Of a stretch of DNA of 64,000 nucleotides, positions 20,039 to 26,961 are shown piece after piece; positions within the stretch are counted from its first letter, which is position 1; each line of letters opens with the position of its first letter. This stretch comes from Candidatus Poribacteria bacterium (GTDB lineage: Bacteria > Poribacteria > WGA-4E > PCPOR2b), in NCBI GenBank assembly GCA_022822785.1, contig JAJEAL010000140.1:1-64000 (forward strand). Direction: 5' to 3'. The translations under genes were made by a program, and so were the position numbers. The notes beneath the pieces are model-generated. The model was given only the letters and a program-made list of their open reading frames with translations, searched no databases and was not told where the DNA came from.

Positions 20039-21154
20039 TCAACCCAGCTGAGCTAACACCGCTTTACACCGTTCCGCCACAACCCGTTCCTGTCCGGGTT
20101 GTAGGTTATGGGGGTTGATCGTTACACTGTCCTCAGTGAAGTGTTGCCCAACCACAATAGGCGGATCACCTGCTTCCAGTGCCTCCGCTATCATAGATCG
20201 TGTGAAGTTAGCCTCCGCGGTTGGGCGGATGTTCAGCAGCGGAATCGTGTATGTCTCCGACTTGGTGAACCGTCCAACAGTTATATTCGGAATCCCCTCT
20301 AATGCTGACTCAATGTAGTCCAGTTGAGCCGTCCATCGAGCGGTATCGGCTTCGTGATCTCTCGCCAAGTAGAGTTCCAGCGCCTTCATAAACCCGACCA
20401 TTTCCTCCCGACTCACCTTCATCGGTCGTCCCACGGTGGCGAATGGGACACCGTTGGCAGCGCACCCCGCAATAAGGTCTTTGCGCCCAATGACCAGCCC
20501 GGTGGATTGCGGTCCCATGATACTCTTGCCGCCACTGAAGATAATCAGATCAGCACCCGCCTCCCAGAAACGCGTCAAGGTCGAAACGGGTGGACATTCC
20601 GACGCAGCGTCCACAATCACGGGCACGGATGCTGCCCTTGCCATCGCTACAACCTCATCTAACGGCACAGAGGCGGGGTGGTTCATGACGGTTGCCATGA
20701 AGAAGATGGCTGCGGTGTTTTCATTGATGGCACGGCGCATCTCTTCGGTCGGCGGTGTCCCTTGATCATCAATTTCAATCAGCGTCCCTCCGGCTACACG
20801 AATCGCTTGGTCATACGCAATTCGATGTATCTTTTGGATGATGACCTCGTGCTTCATCCCGGTTGTATCCGGCAGTTGTGTAATCTTGACGGGATCGGTC
20901 CCCGCCATACAGGCAGCGGTAGTCAACACCAGTCCACAGGCGGCACTTGAGGTCACATACGCTGCCTCCACCCCAAGCATAGCGGCAATCCGTTCACCGA
21001 CCTTCTGCTGCACTTCATCTAAAAAACAGAACTGTTGCGATGCACCGCGCATACTGTCTAACACTTCGGGTGCCATCAGGGAGCCGCCGTATCGGGTGAC
21101 GGTTCCCGCTGCATTGATTAGGGTGCGGACACCTAATTCGTCATAAATGCTCAT
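20039..21154 (-). CDS. SelA-like PLP-dependent enzyme
   Basis: 371 residues of the SelA-like fold-type I PLP family, which also contains D-glucosaminate-6-phosphate ammonia-lyase (DgaE-like). It begins YDELGVRTLINAAGTVTRYG, a typical opening of this family. The PLP lysine should be in FSGGKSIMGPQSTG (about residues 205-218). It is too short, and lacks the context, for selenocysteine synthesis, so a lyase or aldolase role on an amino sugar or keto-sugar acid is more likely. It converges with the mutarotase gene four bases away. Confidence 0.82.
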   Translation of the reverse strand: MSIYDELGVRTLINAAGTVTRYGGSLMAPEVLDSMRGASQQFCFLDEVQQKVGERIAAMLGVEAAYVTSSAACGLVLTTAACMAGTDPVKITQLPDTTGMKHEVIIQKIHRIAYDQAIRVAGGTLIEIDDQGTPPTEEMRRAINENTAAIFFMATVMNHPASVPLDEVVAMARAASVPVIVDAASECPPVSTLTRFWEAGADLIIFSGGKSIMGPQSTGLVIGRKDLIAGCAANGVPFATVGRPMKVSREEMVGFMKALELYLARDHEADTARWTAQLDYIESALEGIPNITVGRFTKSETYTIPLLNIRPTAEANFTRSMIAEALEAGDPPIVVGQHFTEDSVTINPHNLQPGQERVVAERCKAVLAQLG

Positions 21155-21199
21155 CGTTGAGTCCTTTGTGTTTGTTAGCCGAGATTCTCGGCAGGGAAT

Positions 21200-21423
21200 T
21201 TATAACTCGGTGATGTATCTTGCCGGTAGTGCATCATTCAACATCTGACCACTCCTGACTTGTTGAGATTCTTGCCCTGCGGAACGAAGCCCTGCTCAAG
21301 CTCCTTCGATAACCTAGAATACCGCTTGAGTGTGCTATCTGCGATACTCGACTGAATCAGTTCTTTCGTCTCGGTGCTGATAGCTAGTCCCTGTTCCTGT
21401 TGTCTTGTAACCAATTCGTTCAT
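21200..21423 (-). pseudogene. Decayed tyrosine-recombinase N-terminus, copy 1
   Basis: The frame starts MNELVTRQQEQGLAISTETK and continues through an ADSTLKRYSRLSKELE helix, the SAM-like core-binding fold of tyrosine recombinases. It reads to a stop at 21238. A one-frame shift then restores homology to copy 2 (QMLNDALPARYITEL) until a second stop at 21200-21202. The catalytic domain is missing. Its ATG lies 2 bases after the stop of the repeat protein upstream, and its ribosome site AGGAGGAAT lies inside that gene's 3' end, so the two were one operon. Confidence 0.7.
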
Positions 21424-21425
21424 GA

Positions 21426-22082
21426 TTATTCCTCCTGTTCAGGTATCCACGTTGTCTGTCTTGCTTCGTTAGAATCACTGTAGAAACCGATTCCTGCGCC
21501 CGATGATTTATCGTAGACTATAAAATCGTTGCGGTGTGGTTGGGCGTTGAATCTAAACGACTCTTTGCCCTCTGGATCTTTTACCGCGATATTATTAACC
21601 CCTTCACCTGTTCTTAATGCAATCGCCCCTTCCCTAGTTTCGTTAAAGATGTTTACCTCATTGAAGCTATTATCGCCTACGATTAATCTAGGCATGAATA
21701 ATGCAATCGCCTCTGCTCTATTTTTATCATAGATATTTATCTCATTACTTTTTTCTAATGCGCTTAATACAATCGCCCCTTTTTCATTTTTGTCATAGAT
21801 GTTTACCGTATTGTACGCCTCGGAGCTGCTTAACGCAATTGCCAGTTTTCCTTTTTTGTTAAGGATACTCACTCCATTCGCCCCCAAGAATGTGTTTAAT
21901 CTAATCGCCGTTTTCCCATTTTGGTCAACGACTGTCAATCCTCGGCAAGTAATCTCATCGAAAAAGCCGTTTTGTTGTGCTTCGATGTCCGGTGTTACAA
22001 ATTGCCCGATAGTGATACCGATTGCCATAATCCCTGCCCCTAAGAGCATATATCCCAACTTCTGCTTGTAATTCATGTTCAT
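21426..22082 (-). CDS. Membrane-anchored short-repeat protein, copy 1
   Basis: 218 residues. A hydrophobic N-terminal segment (about 10-28, YMLLGAGIMAIGITIGQFV) is followed by ITCRGLTVVDQNGKTAIRL. Then come about six units of about 22-26 residues built on a strand-turn-strand pattern such as NIYDKNEKGAIVL. The C-terminus is GAGIGFYSDSNEARQTTWIP. This looks like a small beta-solenoid or repeat-sheet domain outside the inner membrane. No known family recognised. A paralogue with the same downstream recombinase remnant lies at 26206. Confidence 0.72.
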   Translation of the reverse strand: MNMNYKQKLGYMLLGAGIMAIGITIGQFVTPDIEAQQNGFFDEITCRGLTVVDQNGKTAIRLNTFLGANGVSILNKKGKLAIALSSSEAYNTVNIYDKNEKGAIVLSALEKSNEINIYDKNRAEAIALFMPRLIVGDNSFNEVNIFNETREGAIALRTGEGVNNIAVKDPEGKESFRFNAQPHRNDFIVYDKSSGAGIGFYSDSNEARQTTWIPEQEE

Positions 22083-22211
22083 CTCCTATTGAACTTACCC
22101 CCTTGGATTTAGTGCCGATTGGCTGGGAGCGTAGCATTTTCGGCGTTAAGTTTCGGTAACTGGAATTAATTTCAGTGTAAACTCCTTGTAGCTTCCGGTC
22201 CCGATAAAGAT

Positions 22212-22538
22212 TCATCTCATCGCATAAGCCGCATCGTGTGGTCCCACAGTCAAGAAAATAACAGTTTCATCTTCTTGCCCCTCGCAAAGACGGAATTGAC
22301 ACTCTTTGACCTGCCAATATTCTTCACAAATGACGAAAATCACCCGAAAGTTGCCCACCCGCGCACTGCGATAGCCCCGCAAATCTAATCCGTCAGTAAC
22401 ATTCCGAAGGGGTTCTGTACCAGCATAGGGATTTTCGATAATCCGTTCAATCCTTCGCTTGATACGTCGGCGTAGACTGGAGTAACGTTTAAGGTTTTGG
22501 TTGAACCCGTCTCCATACAAATCTTGGTATTCATTCAT
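22212..22538 (-). CDS. RelE/ParE-type toxin-like protein
   Basis: 108 residues with the small RelE-like layout: basic helices (LKRYSSLRRRIKRRIERI), a strand (GLDLRGYRSARVGNFRVIFVI) and a C-terminal FLTVGPHDAAY segment. In the family this fold cleaves mRNA on the ribosome or inhibits gyrase. The ATG at 22538 overlaps the stop of the preceding gene by eight bases (AATGAATGAATAC), as antitoxin-toxin pairs usually do. The catalytic set is not fully clear, so activity is inferred. Confidence 0.72.
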   Translation of the reverse strand: MNEYQDLYGDGFNQNLKRYSSLRRRIKRRIERIIENPYAGTEPLRNVTDGLDLRGYRSARVGNFRVIFVICEEYWQVKECQFRLCEGQEDETVIFLTVGPHDAAYAMR

Positions 22539-23109
22539 TCCAAACTTCCGCGTGGGTGAGCAATCTCAACTGATTAGATTCTATTCGTTCAAGAATATCT
22601 TCCATATCCTTATAAAGCGGAGAGTCTTTATCGAGATCGAAAAATTCTTGCGTGGTGAACTCTATACGTTCCTGAGCAAGTCCGAGGAGTTCAGAGGTTT
22701 TATCCGACCGAATGGGTCCGAGCGTGGATCGCCAGCCCCAACCACGAGGAGCCCAACCAAAAACACGCCTAATCTCCTGTATGCGAATCGGATTGTTAGT
22801 CAATTTAAGATACCAGTCAACAGGGATTCGATATTCTGTATACTCCTCATCACATCTTCTATATATCCACCGATCTGCTCCCTCGTAGGAGCAACCATTC
22901 CAACGCTTACAAACTCGACCAAGAGCCACAATGCCACACTTATTGGCATACATGAAACAAATATCATCTGGTTCGAGCTTCCCAAGAACCTTGAAGCCAT
23001 ATTTTTCTTTGTCTCCCGAAGTAAAGGCATGACAACGCTCTATCCATTGATTGTGTGGACTACGCCCATTAAAAGCCTTAGCTTCCGTGTTGATATAATA
23101 GTAGTTCAT
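22531..23109 (-). CDS. EVE-like domain protein with antitoxin-like C-terminus
   Basis: 192 residues. The first ~130 (YYYINTEAKAFNGRS, then GFKVLGKLEPDDICFMYAN, GIVALGRVCKRW) resemble the EVE/PUA-like fold that binds modified bases. The last ~40 residues (helix LYKDMEDILERIESNQ, ending RLLTHAEVWNE) look like the C-terminal toxin-binding helix of small antitoxins. The gene takes the antitoxin position directly upstream of, and overlapping, a RelE-type toxin gene. Domain assignments are from fold-like sequence pattern only. Confidence 0.55.
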   Translation of the reverse strand: MNYYYINTEAKAFNGRSPHNQWIERCHAFTSGDKEKYGFKVLGKLEPDDICFMYANKCGIVALGRVCKRWNGCSYEGADRWIYRRCDEEYTEYRIPVDWYLKLTNNPIRIQEIRRVFGWAPRGWGWRSTLGPIRSDKTSELLGLAQERIEFTTQEFFDLDKDSPLYKDMEDILERIESNQLRLLTHAEVWNE

Positions 23110-23220
23110 GTTGACTCCATCTATTTCGGGAAAGCCTTCCGCGAAATATCCACATAGTTAGGTTTTAGTCTTGAAACGTCCGATAAGAGAACTTAGCGGA
23201 TATTATCTGGTTTAAAGACT

Positions 23221-23550
23221 CTAAACCGCAACGACCCGCTGATGCCCCACTTTATCTTCCGCCGGCGTAATCCGAATCTCAATGTTGCGATTAAAACGAT
23301 TGAGAAGTGTAAACAATCGCTCCACGCTAAAGCGGTTAAAATCACCGTTCTTCAGTCTCGAAATATCAGATGGGTCCACACCGAGAATCTTCCCCGCTTT
23401 TGCCTGCGTGAGTTTTCGTCCTTCAATGATATTGTAAATCTCAAAAGCTAAATCTGCCTTCAACAAGGCTTGTTCAGCTTCGGCGTCTGAAAATCCCACA
23501 TCCTTAAACACATTTCCAGAACTCTGCTCAATTTTGACATCTTCACTCAT
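23221..23550 (-). CDS. XRE-family antitoxin (HigA-like)
   Basis: 109 residues with a helix-turn-helix at about 50-75 (KLTQAKAGKILGVDPSDISR). The following NRFSVERLFTLLNRFNRNIEI is typical of HigA-type antitoxins that neutralise the partner and repress the operon. It lies 35 bases downstream of the toxin gene. This toxin-first order is characteristic of higBA. A double dyad upstream of the pair (23922-23958) is a likely binding site for it. Confidence 0.85.
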   Translation of the reverse strand: MSEDVKIEQSSGNVFKDVGFSDAEAEQALLKADLAFEIYNIIEGRKLTQAKAGKILGVDPSDISRLKNGDFNRFSVERLFTLLNRFNRNIEIRITPAEDKVGHQRVVAV

Positions 23551-23585
23551 TGTTTTGCCTCCAGTTGTTGCGCGATTTTGAGGCG

Positions 23586-23900
23586 CTATTTTATCAAATC
23601 AATTTCCCGTTTCGGGGTTCTGATCCCGCGAGTCGATTTCTTCTGAAACACATGGAGCACATAGATTTTCGCGCCAATGCTTACGGTGTAAACGGAGCGG
23701 TATGTGTCCGTATCGTAAGGTGCGACAATTTCCCACACGCCAGATCCAATGCCCCGCATCGGTTTTGCTTTAGGATGTTTCACACCGCGCTGGGCAAAAC
23801 GTAACGCTTCACCAATCGTCCTCCTCACGGCTTTAGGAAAACGTCGGATTTGCTCGCGAGAATCCCCAATCCAAGTTACATCTTTTATCACTTGGTTCAA
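23586..23900 (-). CDS. HigB-like toxin (phage Gp49-like family)
   Basis: 104 residues of the RelE-superfamily Gp49-like group, ribosome-dependent mRNA endonucleases in characterised members. Features: WIGDSREQIRRFPKAVRRTI, then the MRGIGSGVWEIV strand, a YRSVYTV strand and VLHVFQKKSTRGI, the conserved lysine-rich C-terminal motif. Normal length. First gene of a two-gene operon with the XRE antitoxin. Confidence 0.88.
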   Translation of the reverse strand: MNQVIKDVTWIGDSREQIRRFPKAVRRTIGEALRFAQRGVKHPKAKPMRGIGSGVWEIVAPYDTDTYRSVYTVSIGAKIYVLHVFQKKSTRGIRTPKREIDLIK

Positions 23901-23921
23901 AATTATGTCTTCCTCTCAATT

Positions 23922-23958
23922 CATGGTAGACTTACCATATTATGGCAGATTTACCATG
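23922..23958 (-). promoter_or_regulatory. Double-dyad operator of the higBA-like operon
   Basis: Two 16-base palindromes, ATGGTAGACTTACCAT (23923-23938) and ATGGCAGATTTACCAT (23942-23957), share the form ATGGYARRYYTRCCAT. They lie 19 bases centre to centre, 22 bases upstream of the toxin start. The whole 37-base block is itself nearly self-complementary. This is the expected place for an autorepressor site bound by the XRE antitoxin. Confidence 0.65.
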
Positions 23959-24054
23959 AAGATTACAACACTTTTTTGGAGAGGATTGAGGCGGAGGAAA
24001 GAAAGTTAAGGCGGAAAAAATGCCCTATAACAGATCTTATCGGACTATTTAGAA

Positions 24055-25578
24055 TCACAAAAGTCGTTGGTAAAGTTGTTGTCTTTCAGCCCTTGCATTT
24101 CGGAGTTCTTCTGCCTTAGTGAAATCGGAATTGGCACGATCTTCTTCTCCTATGGCACGATAACATTTGCCACGCAAGTCGTAGATGGCAGCAATCTCAT
24201 CTTCAATCCCACCATTAGGGCCATCTACCGCTTTAGTAAAATCTTCGATAGCCTTTTCATACTCTTTGCGGTCGTAGTAAATACAACCGCGCATTTTATA
24301 TGGGTAGTAAAAAGCAGCGTTAGGGCTTGATTCTACATCTGCCATGAGGTCAATTGCCTTGTTACATTTTTTAAGTGCGCGATCAAAATCCCGTTTTCGA
24401 CGATGGGCATCGCCGAGGTTGCAATAGACGCGAGCTTTGTTGGGGACATCATGTTTGATTGCCCAATTGTAATCAGAAATAGCACCATCATAATCGCCGG
24501 TTCTTATGCGACTAAAACCGCGTTCTGTGTAAAACAGAATAAAAGCAGGATCAAGCGCTATGGCTTGGGTCAGGTCTTCAACAGCCCTTTGATAATCTTC
24601 TGTTATACGATACGATACGCCACGCTCGTAATACAACATGGCATTTGTAGGGTCAAGTTCTATTGCCTCGTTATAATACCGAATTGACGCATCGTATTTA
24701 TCTTTACTATCGGTGAGATGTCCTTCAAATTGACGATACATCCCCTTCCGCAGATTTATGAATGTTTCGTAGTGTCTATCCTGATGTTTAATATATCCGT
24801 GGATGTCATTGTAGATAGATTGGAGAGAGATGCCATAATACTCTCGCAGGTGGGCTAACATGGGAACTTTGAGATCTTTGCGAATCTTAATCGGTTCATC
24901 ATATTTGCATTTCTCAATAAAGCCATCTGGAGGCTGAACAAATATGCTGTTCTGGGCTATGACGCGATTTTCTGGGGTCTTAGGTCTTTTTATCCAATCT
25001 CTTGTTGTTTCGTCTTGTTTCAACAAGATAACCCTACCATCTTTTTTAGGTTTGCCATAGCAAGCAAAGAAAAGGGCAACCAAATAGTCGGTTGTGAAGT
25101 CTATAAGACTGGTTTTGGCACCGTAATGTTGGAGTTGAGCTTCAAGTTCAAAATCACCCGCGGTATCACGGGCGTGTCTTCGGGCTTCCACCAGAAACAA
25201 TTGCCTCACATCCTTTACATCGGGGATTGTTATGGTAACCCCTTTTTCCCGCTGCAATGACCTCCAAAGACCTGAGGACACCTCCGTATAACATTTAGGC
25301 TCGCCGCGGTAGATGTAGCTGCCGTCGCTAGACTTTTCCACTAACTCATTGATTATTCCCATAATCTCGCGTTGAGTATATTCCTCCATGTTTTCTGGCA
25401 TGACCACTGTTGCATCTTTCCAAAAGTCTGCATCCGTGGGCGGATCGTCCGGATCAGATAAGGCTGCTTTTTCTATGTCTTCATCAGTTAGTACATCCAC
25501 GCGCTCCCAATCGGTTTCGTCGGGGAGGGCATCTAGTTCAGACCGGGTGTATGTGACGTCTGTATTCTGCTCTTTCAT
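24055..25578 (-). CDS. BrnA-like antitoxin domain fused to FRG domain and TPR repeats
   Basis: 507 residues from the ATG at 25578; a longer frame back to 25638 has no ribosome site and overlaps the toxin gene. Residues 1-62 follow the BrnA pattern: YTRSELDAL, TDWERVDVLTDEDIE, SDPDDPPTDADFW, VVMP. BrnA's C-terminal ribbon-helix-helix part is replaced by an FRG domain (about 75-190, YRGEP at 90-94, HYGAKTSLIDFT at 151-162). About five TPR units follow (about 290-490, for example YNEAIELDP, LYYERGVSYR). It lies just downstream of, and overlaps, a BrnT toxin gene. The role of FRG domains is not settled; they occur in several predicted toxins and defence proteins. Confidence 0.78.
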   Translation of the reverse strand: MKEQNTDVTYTRSELDALPDETDWERVDVLTDEDIEKAALSDPDDPPTDADFWKDATVVMPENMEEYTQREIMGIINELVEKSSDGSYIYRGEPKCYTEVSSGLWRSLQREKGVTITIPDVKDVRQLFLVEARRHARDTAGDFELEAQLQHYGAKTSLIDFTTDYLVALFFACYGKPKKDGRVILLKQDETTRDWIKRPKTPENRVIAQNSIFVQPPDGFIEKCKYDEPIKIRKDLKVPMLAHLREYYGISLQSIYNDIHGYIKHQDRHYETFINLRKGMYRQFEGHLTDSKDKYDASIRYYNEAIELDPTNAMLYYERGVSYRITEDYQRAVEDLTQAIALDPAFILFYTERGFSRIRTGDYDGAISDYNWAIKHDVPNKARVYCNLGDAHRRKRDFDRALKKCNKAIDLMADVESSPNAAFYYPYKMRGCIYYDRKEYEKAIEDFTKAVDGPNGGIEDEIAAIYDLRGKCYRAIGEEDRANSDFTKAEELRNARAERQQLYQRLL

Positions 25579-25835
25579 GTTTGTTTGCCTTTCTTGCTGT
25601 AATGATTCGGATGACCGAATTGCGCCGCGTATAGACAATGCGAAGGATTTTTTCTTTCACTTCGTCCTAAAGCAATGATCCGGGTTTCACCGTAGTCTCG
25701 ACGGGTATCTTCTCTTTCTAATCGGGGACCATCAAAGATTTTTGCTGCCTTGGAAAAACTGATACCATGTTTTGTGATATTGATTCGATTTTTTATCGGA
25801 TCCCAGCTAAATTGTTGCCGATCATGATTAACCAT
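25538..25835 (-). pseudogene. BrnT toxin gene with one-base frameshift
   Basis: The frame from ATG 25835 gives FSWDPIKNRINITKHGISF and EDTRRDYGETRIIALGRSER, the BrnT RNase pattern (WD.xK, KHGxSF, RxxALGxSE). After the A6 run (T6 on + at 25648-25653) the frame is lost. Removing one A restores ILRIVYTRRNSVIRIITARK and ANKHERAEY, the normal BrnT ending, with a stop at 25538-25540 inside the downstream gene. The restored product is 98 residues, close to family length. It could be a true inactivation, an assembly error, or a slippage-controlled toxin. Confidence 0.8.
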
Positions 25836-25852
25836 CTATGGCGCATTCCTTT

Positions 25853-26203
25853 GCCATCCACCTACCCATGTTCCCGTTCCTTGCCCTCTCTACGGATACC
25901 TGCCAATGTCTGACTGGTAATCTCACCGACAATCTCAATACCGTGATTCTTTGCCAACCACTTCGCCGCGGCAACTACCTAGGCAATCATAGATGGGGCT
26001 TTGCCCGCAGTGTGAAGCTCGGTGATATAATCCGCCAGTAGCCCGTCGGTTAAGATCTGATCACCGAGCCATGCTTCAAGCTCTCTCAATAGTCTCTGGT
26101 ATCGCTTGAGAGCGCTATCTGCAATGCTTGACTAAATCAATTCTTTCGTCTCGGTGCTGATAGCTAGCCCCGTTTGCTGTTGCTGTGTAACCAATTCGTT
26201 CAT
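25853..26203 (-). pseudogene. Decayed tyrosine-recombinase N-terminus, copy 2
   Basis: Reads MNELVTQQQQTGLAISTETK, then after a TAG stop continues in frame: SSIADSALKRYQRLLRELEA, DGLLADYITELHTAGKAPS, a second TAG, VVAAAKWLAKNHGIEIVGEI, TSQTLAGIRREGKEREHG, a third TAG, VDG. This is the SAM-like N-terminal domain of a tyrosine recombinase without the catalytic domain. The first TAG falls where copy 1 at 21423 has CAG (Gln). It directly follows the repeat-protein gene, as in copy 1. Confidence 0.75.
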
Positions 26204-26205
26204 GA

Positions 26206-26859
26206 TTATTCCTCCTGTTTAGGTCTCCACGTTGTCTGTTTTGCTTCGTTATAATCGGCGTAGAATCCAATCCCTGCGCCGTCAGATTTATTGTGGACGC
26301 TTAATTCATTGGTATGCGTGTAGGCGTTGAATTCAAAAGCCACTTTCCCATTTTCGTCATAGATTTCCATAGAATTCGCTACCGCTGCATTGTAGCTGCT
26401 TAACGCAATCGCCGTTTTCTCATTTTGGTCATAGATGGATATACCATTTCTTCTGAAACCACTGCTGTCTAACTTAATCGCCTCTTTCCCATTTGGGCGA
26501 TTGATGGATATAACATTGTGTGTCCCAAAGCTGTTTAACTCAATCATCCCGAAACTAATCCTATTTGGATTATAGATGGATATACCATTTCCATAATCCG
26601 CACTTTTTAACCAAATCGCCGTTTTCTCATTTTGGTCATAGATGGATATACCATTTCCTAACTTGTCGTTACTGTCTAACTCAATGGCCCTTTTTCCATT
26701 TTTGTCAACGACTGTCAGTTTTCGGCAAGTAATTTCATTGAAAAGACCGTTGCTTTGTGCTTCGATGGGTGGCGTAAAAAAGGTGCTGCCTACACCCATG
26801 CCGATAAGCATAATCAGTGCGCCTAACGCCATGTATCCTAACTTCTGTTTGTGATTCAT
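26206..26859 (-). CDS. Membrane-anchored short-repeat protein, copy 2
   Basis: 217 residues from ATG 26859, which has AAGGAGAAG upstream. Anchor YMALGALIMLIGMGVGSTFF (about 7-26), then LFNEITCRKLTVVDKNGKRA. Six regular units follow of the type GISIYDQNEKTAIWLKS, period 22-25 residues. The ending GAGIGFYADYNEAKQTTWRP is nearly the same as in copy 1, and the internal units are more regular. Both copies share the anchor, ITCR motif and C-terminus while the middle units differ. Function unknown; the strand-turn period suggests a beta-sheet stack outside the membrane. Confidence 0.72.
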   Translation of the reverse strand: MNHKQKLGYMALGALIMLIGMGVGSTFFTPPIEAQSNGLFNEITCRKLTVVDKNGKRAIELDSNDKLGNGISIYDQNEKTAIWLKSADYGNGISIYNPNRISFGMIELNSFGTHNVISINRPNGKEAIKLDSSGFRRNGISIYDQNEKTAIALSSYNAAVANSMEIYDENGKVAFEFNAYTHTNELSVHNKSDGAGIGFYADYNEAKQTTWRPKQEE

Positions 26860-26961
26860 AACCTTCTCCTTTTTACCCCCCAAGATACTGACCGATTGAC
26901 TGGGGATGTCGTAAATCGGCGTTTAATTTTGTGTAAATGTGTTTACCGAAACTTATAATAA

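Follow-up and report, generated by a model that had tools for sequence, protein, structure and literature searches.

It has long been asked how toxin-antitoxin modules detect an infection, and the locus described here raises this question in a specific form: is a protein that appears to carry an EVE-like domain in the antitoxin position of a RelE-type pair a genuine fusion, and could its head act as a sensor? The fusion gene (22531-23109, minus strand; positions are those of the window, the whole stretch of 64,000 nucleotides that was analysed) has an ATG start, encodes 192 amino acids and is preceded by the sequence GGAG, as read from the DNA, five bases 5' of the ATG. It shares eight bases, ATGAATGA (22531-22538, minus strand), with a toxin gene of 108 amino acids (22212-22538, minus strand), so that the two genes are translationally coupled. 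The same overlap is found in the canonical pairs of nine related loci. These observations agree with the open reading frame and the overlap reported in an earlier note on this DNA.

The earlier note also called the partner RelE-like, and our searches bear this out. The toxin matched Pfam ParE_toxin (PF05016) with E=1.8e-6, over the curated cut-off, and the PHROG entry 'RelE-like toxin' with E=5.6e-6. Its best solved relatives are YoeB and RelK, at marginal E-values of 0.013-0.25. The reading frame is intact, and none of the conserved residues (the R, H and Y positions) has been lost; the toxin is probably a ribosome-dependent mRNA interferase. An otherwise invariant DR pair is replaced by a single G in the window copy, where the in-frame loss of one codon changed VDRNFR into VGNFR, which we take to be close to the common RelE consensus.

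Judged by its sequence, the fusion protein is a chimera of two families that also exist separately, and both parents were identified. The EVE-like domain (residues 1-148; 22666-23109, minus strand) is 52-59% identical to three stand-alone proteins, relatives of this part being present in the same genus, and residues 1-122 are 55-59% identical to two stand-alone proteins of the same genome. The C-terminal segment (residues 150-192; 22534-22662, minus strand), a predicted toxin-neutralising tail, is over its 43 codons 74% identical to a canonical antitoxin of the same genome and 63% identical to that of a congener, while residues 145-192 share 69% identity with a separate protein of ~76 amino acids in the same genome. 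In relatives, the canonical antitoxin is short (~76-80 amino acids); in eight genomes of our collection its gene stands immediately before that of the same toxin, mostly with the 8-base overlap. It also precedes this toxin in one Desulfobacteraceae MAG. Since the canonical antitoxin that the tail resembles belongs to this very toxin, usually with the same overlap, the fusion gene and the toxin gene do not stand together by chance. What the earlier note described as a helical ending corresponds to the entire C-terminal half of this small antitoxin, which makes the protein a true two-parent fusion.

The two parents meet at residues ~145-149 (AQERI; 22663-22677, minus strand), where the DNA similarity switches. 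Similarity to the EVE genes runs from the ATG or nearby and stops upstream of the junction, and similarity to the antitoxin-toxin pair begins near codon 147. In the structure model an unbroken helix, of modest confidence, spans residues 135-154 across the junction. The fusion protein lacks the N-terminal part of the antitoxin, including its conserved helix LSVQQLEsLIRKVVREEL; the conserved antitoxin core is kept in the tail, and the overlap with the toxin start is unchanged.

Such a junction could in principle have been produced by an assembly or binning artefact that fused two genes, given that the assembly consists of multiple contigs and that the fusion is present in one genome only. We consider this very improbable. 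Protein identity to the nearest copies in the same genome is just 55-70% and DNA identity 68-77%, and such divergent copies are unlikely to have been misjoined through shared k-mers. Moreover, the junction lies within an in-frame reading frame, and the contig that carries it is 87 kb long and has syntenic flanks.

The relationship of the head to EVE domains emerged from comparing profiles. Pfam EVE (PF01878) matched residues 44-116 of the window protein below threshold (E=0.0056), with 17.1-17.9 bits against a gathering threshold of 23. When an 8-row family alignment was compared by hhalign with a 19-member EVE alignment, the match reached 96.1% over 126 columns, covering the whole domain, and it is this profile-profile comparison that upholds the EVE/PUA-like N-terminus proposed in the earlier note. 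The eight rows comprise four close relatives and four remote relatives from plasmids; the four close relatives alone gave 56% over 30 columns against canonical EVE. The remote relatives were recruited with HMM E-values of 2.5e-6 to 2.6e-3 per million sequences, which become weaker for the larger source collection. One plasmid relative independently gives a weak Pfam EVE match, and two of the four are the N-termini of annotated AAA ATPases beside McrC, i.e. the McrB arrangement. In our reading the head belongs, as a divergent branch, to the EVE/YTH superfamily (in the wider sense of EVE/YTH/DCD-like PUA domains) and not to Pfam EVE.

The AlphaFold models have low confidence (pLDDT 52-67, with 52 for the EVE-only model), although their strand-helix order is plausible. 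In Foldseek, the EVE-only model matched the EVE-HNH enzyme VcaM4I best, with YTH domains lower, all of these matches being weak and none significant. A fold assignment from the models alone was dropped, as both were too weak. Searches of PDB sequences with the antitoxin and EVE profiles returned nothing convincing. A sub-threshold Pfam match of the EVE-like residues to F-box-like, a eukaryotic family, was dismissed. Residue T8 is invariant in the 8-row alignment and aligns with the S/T of the K-S/T-E motif of EVE domains; tentatively, it could correspond to T11 of VcaM4I.

The pair sits in a block of ~4 kb (22.1-26.0 kb) with a GC content of 0.41-0.47, compared to about 0.55 to its left. This block consists of low-GC toxin-antitoxin and defence genes: a HigBA-like pair immediately upstream of the fusion gene, composed of a Gp49-family toxin and an HTH_37 antitoxin (23221-23900), an FRG-domain protein with TPR repeats that matches the PADLOC phage-defence candidate PDC-S15 with E=1.8e-19 (24055-25638), and a BrnT-like gene. 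It is bounded by direct repeats at 21296-21569 and 26076-26349, ~79% identical and 4,780 bases apart, and three congeners have the syntenic flanks without the block. A duplicated unit, made up of an integrase-like N-terminal fragment and a 'VVDKNGK' repeat protein, flanks the block at 21241-22082 and 26069-26883; at least one congener has this unit only once. An Rfam scan of 21000-26500 revealed no RNA family.

A single occurrence of the fusion is what one expects at such a variable site, yet it gives no sign of conservation. The earlier note had suggested looking for the same gene pair elsewhere, and this search confined the fusion to one genome. It was absent from 194 relatives and from 73 genomes of the order, from 85 genomes of the phylum searched with the EVE profile and 387 genomes searched with the antitoxin or EVE profiles, and from IMG/VR contigs, a GTDB contig scan, plasmids and phages. 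Every other match, in the 85 genomes of the phylum and ~300 others, covered one half only. The stand-alone EVE half was never seen beside this toxin, and the antitoxin half is often toxin-less. Homologues without the toxin gene, which the earlier note named as a ground for refutation, thus occur for each half separately, but no second full-length fusion was seen.

Is the fusion maintained, or is it an accident on the way to decay, with a broken antitoxin and a toxin that is losing its function while the cell is protected by a canonical antitoxin elsewhere in the genome? Presence in a single genome would fit such decay, and a canonical antitoxin is indeed encoded in the same genome, on contig C17. 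Toxins of this family are commonly split, truncated or absent, as on C17 itself and in four other genomes. Furthermore, omega on the window branch of the toxin was about 0.8 (95% 0.39-2.31), versus 0.12 (0.05-0.22) on the other branches. This fast change fits relaxed constraint as well as adaptation: the toxin may be decaying, or it may be adjusting to its new partner. In contrast, other features speak against a decaying pair. The junction is clean, in frame and follows a complete EVE domain, the ribosome-binding site is usable, the overlap is preserved, and the toxin has kept its conserved residues and an intact reading frame, whereas the toxin of the canonical pair on C17 is frameshifted (split). 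If the fusion dates back as far as the toxin lineage, which is the upper-age case, both reading frames would have stayed open under neutral evolution (0.2 substitutions per site) with a P of about 3e-4; taken singly, the frame of the fusion gives 0.013 and that of the toxin 0.13. Weighing these points, we regard decay as quite unlikely.

The relatives of each half indicate where the parts came from. Antitoxins of the same toxin family have an RHH-like N-terminus in other phyla (two loci) and a plain helix in this order. Since the N-termini vary among lineages, the head is an exchangeable part. The canonical antitoxin on C17 lies ~20 kb from two stand-alone EVE genes. On the same contig, a stand-alone EVE relative overlaps an HSDR_N-type nuclease gene by 4 bases, and in another genome (G003) one lies near the gene of an HSDR_N/N6_Mtase/Methylase_S protein. 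As the stand-alone relatives adjoin or neighbour HSDR_N-type genes, the donor family is linked to restriction. The existence of unfused homologues of both halves in relatives, together with these stand-alone EVE genes in restriction-gene loci, strengthens the reading of the protein as an antitoxin fusion.

Several other arrangements were seen among these families. In many genomes the canonical antitoxin occurs without a toxin, upstream of a Rieske-like gene; it lies directly 5' of that gene in six loci among others (including L027, L034 and L035), and in three genomes the antitoxin reading frame continues into the Rieske-like protein. Locus L061:3089-7956, which resembles a restriction-type locus of an undescribed kind, combines two stand-alone EVE-like genes with genes for an HSDR_N coiled-coil protein and a nuclease-TPR protein (DUF559/MTES_1575). 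The same divergent EVE-like N-terminus, missed by Pfam, is present on haloarchaeal AAA ATPases encoded next to McrC (L115:3417-6551 and L116:3465-6602). Finally, 147 plasmid records, mostly from Klebsiella and E. coli, encode proteins of ~210 residues whose N-terminus is ribbon-helix-helix-like and whose C-terminus is EVE-like (e.g., L117:2150-2806 and L118:2818-3609). These are largely annotated as hypothetical, and one of the genes has ccdAB and an Abi gene nearby.

How might the fusion work? We propose that recombination replaced the N-terminal helix of the small antitoxin by a complete EVE-like domain. Residues ~150-192 would still hold the RelE/ParE-superfamily toxin, made by coupled translation, in an inactive complex. 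The EVE-like domain, of a kind that in other settings recognises chemically modified DNA, would serve as the nucleic-acid-reading head of the antitoxin, probably for a modified base. A type II pair of this kind is our leading explanation, and we place its likelihood a little short of even. When the DNA or RNA of an infecting phage is modified, binding of the base could recruit, destabilise or strip the antitoxin, which would free the toxin. Phage-modification sensing is a hypothesis for which VcaM4I offers a good structural precedent: this enzyme has an N-terminal EVE domain, a linker helix and a C-terminal effector, and removal of the EVE domain and linker leaves a toxic nuclease (PMC7897488). 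The most specific version of the proposal, in which the EVE head is a direct sensor, modified phage bases relieve neutralisation and the RelE-type toxin halts growth, seems to us unlikely rather than likely. If true, it would represent modification-triggered abortive infection that arose when a restriction-type reader was swapped onto an antitoxin.

An alternative explanation might be that the chimera is functional but does not sense anything. The EVE domain would then do no more than stand in for the lost helix, whether in folding, in dimerisation or in binding the operator, and the pair would be an ordinary addiction or stress module. PUA-like domains bind nucleic acid, and the N-terminal variation among antitoxins of the same family described above would be compatible with such a role. 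In addition, an imperfect 27-bp palindrome with 13-nt arms that are 85% complementary (23122-23148) lies just 5' of the fusion gene, 13 bases upstream of its start codon, and is a candidate operator. However, this palindrome is only weakly significant, since an equally good one was found in 12 of 500 shuffles and in 14 of 249 random windows, and we do not find it convincing as an operator. The restriction genes beside the donor EVE family also argue against this explanation, as they suggest that a specificity was brought in. We consider the chimera without sensing possible, though on the unlikely side.

Returning to the sensing antitoxin, both parents have been identified in unfused form, and the genome also encodes a canonical copy of the antitoxin; the locus therefore offers, by the swap of one domain, a clean test of whether an ordinary antitoxin can become a phage sensor through a modified-base reader. 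More generally, it shows that recombination can join to an antitoxin a reader domain of a type that occurs next to restriction systems.

In the open-access literature we found no EVE-containing antitoxin of a RelE toxin, in line with the expectation of the earlier note that no system of this make-up has been described. Among the closest known systems is the canonical type II RelE/ParE pair of this order, with which the window pair shares the toxin family, the antitoxin C-terminus and the 8-base overlap. It differs in that the canonical antitoxin has an N-terminal helix, whereas the fusion has an EVE-like domain of ~148 residues instead. Bell, Wolf and Koonin (2020) described EVE domains next to restriction systems and in toxin-antitoxin settings with PIN or GNAT (PMC7641849). 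Their (PIN)-GNAT-EVE class likewise places EVE in a predicted toxin-antitoxin context, but its EVE domain is joined to the GNAT/PIN protein, the predicted toxin, and the partner is usually ASCH, whereas here EVE is part of a RelE/ParE antitoxin. Neither RelE nor ParE appears as a word in that paper, and GNAT, PIN and ASCH gave no Pfam match in the fusion or its scanned neighbours.

With VcaM4I (PMC7897488, PDB 6yex) the fusion shares an N-terminal EVE domain, a helical linker and a C-terminal functional part, the structural match being weak. The effector of VcaM4I is a fused nuclease, in contrast to the separate toxin that would be held here by the antitoxin tail. The McrB-like AAA ATPases with McrC on haloarchaeal plasmids (Halorussus, Halobacterium) have a remote EVE-like domain of the same family in the specificity position, yet these are Type IV restriction systems and not toxin-antitoxin pairs. 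Conversely, the multidomain antitoxins of the Panacea network (PMC10440598) resemble our proposal in their division of labour, in that one domain neutralises the toxin and another is a proposed sensor. That network is built on the Panacea domain and other toxins, while here the putative sensor would be an EVE-like domain.
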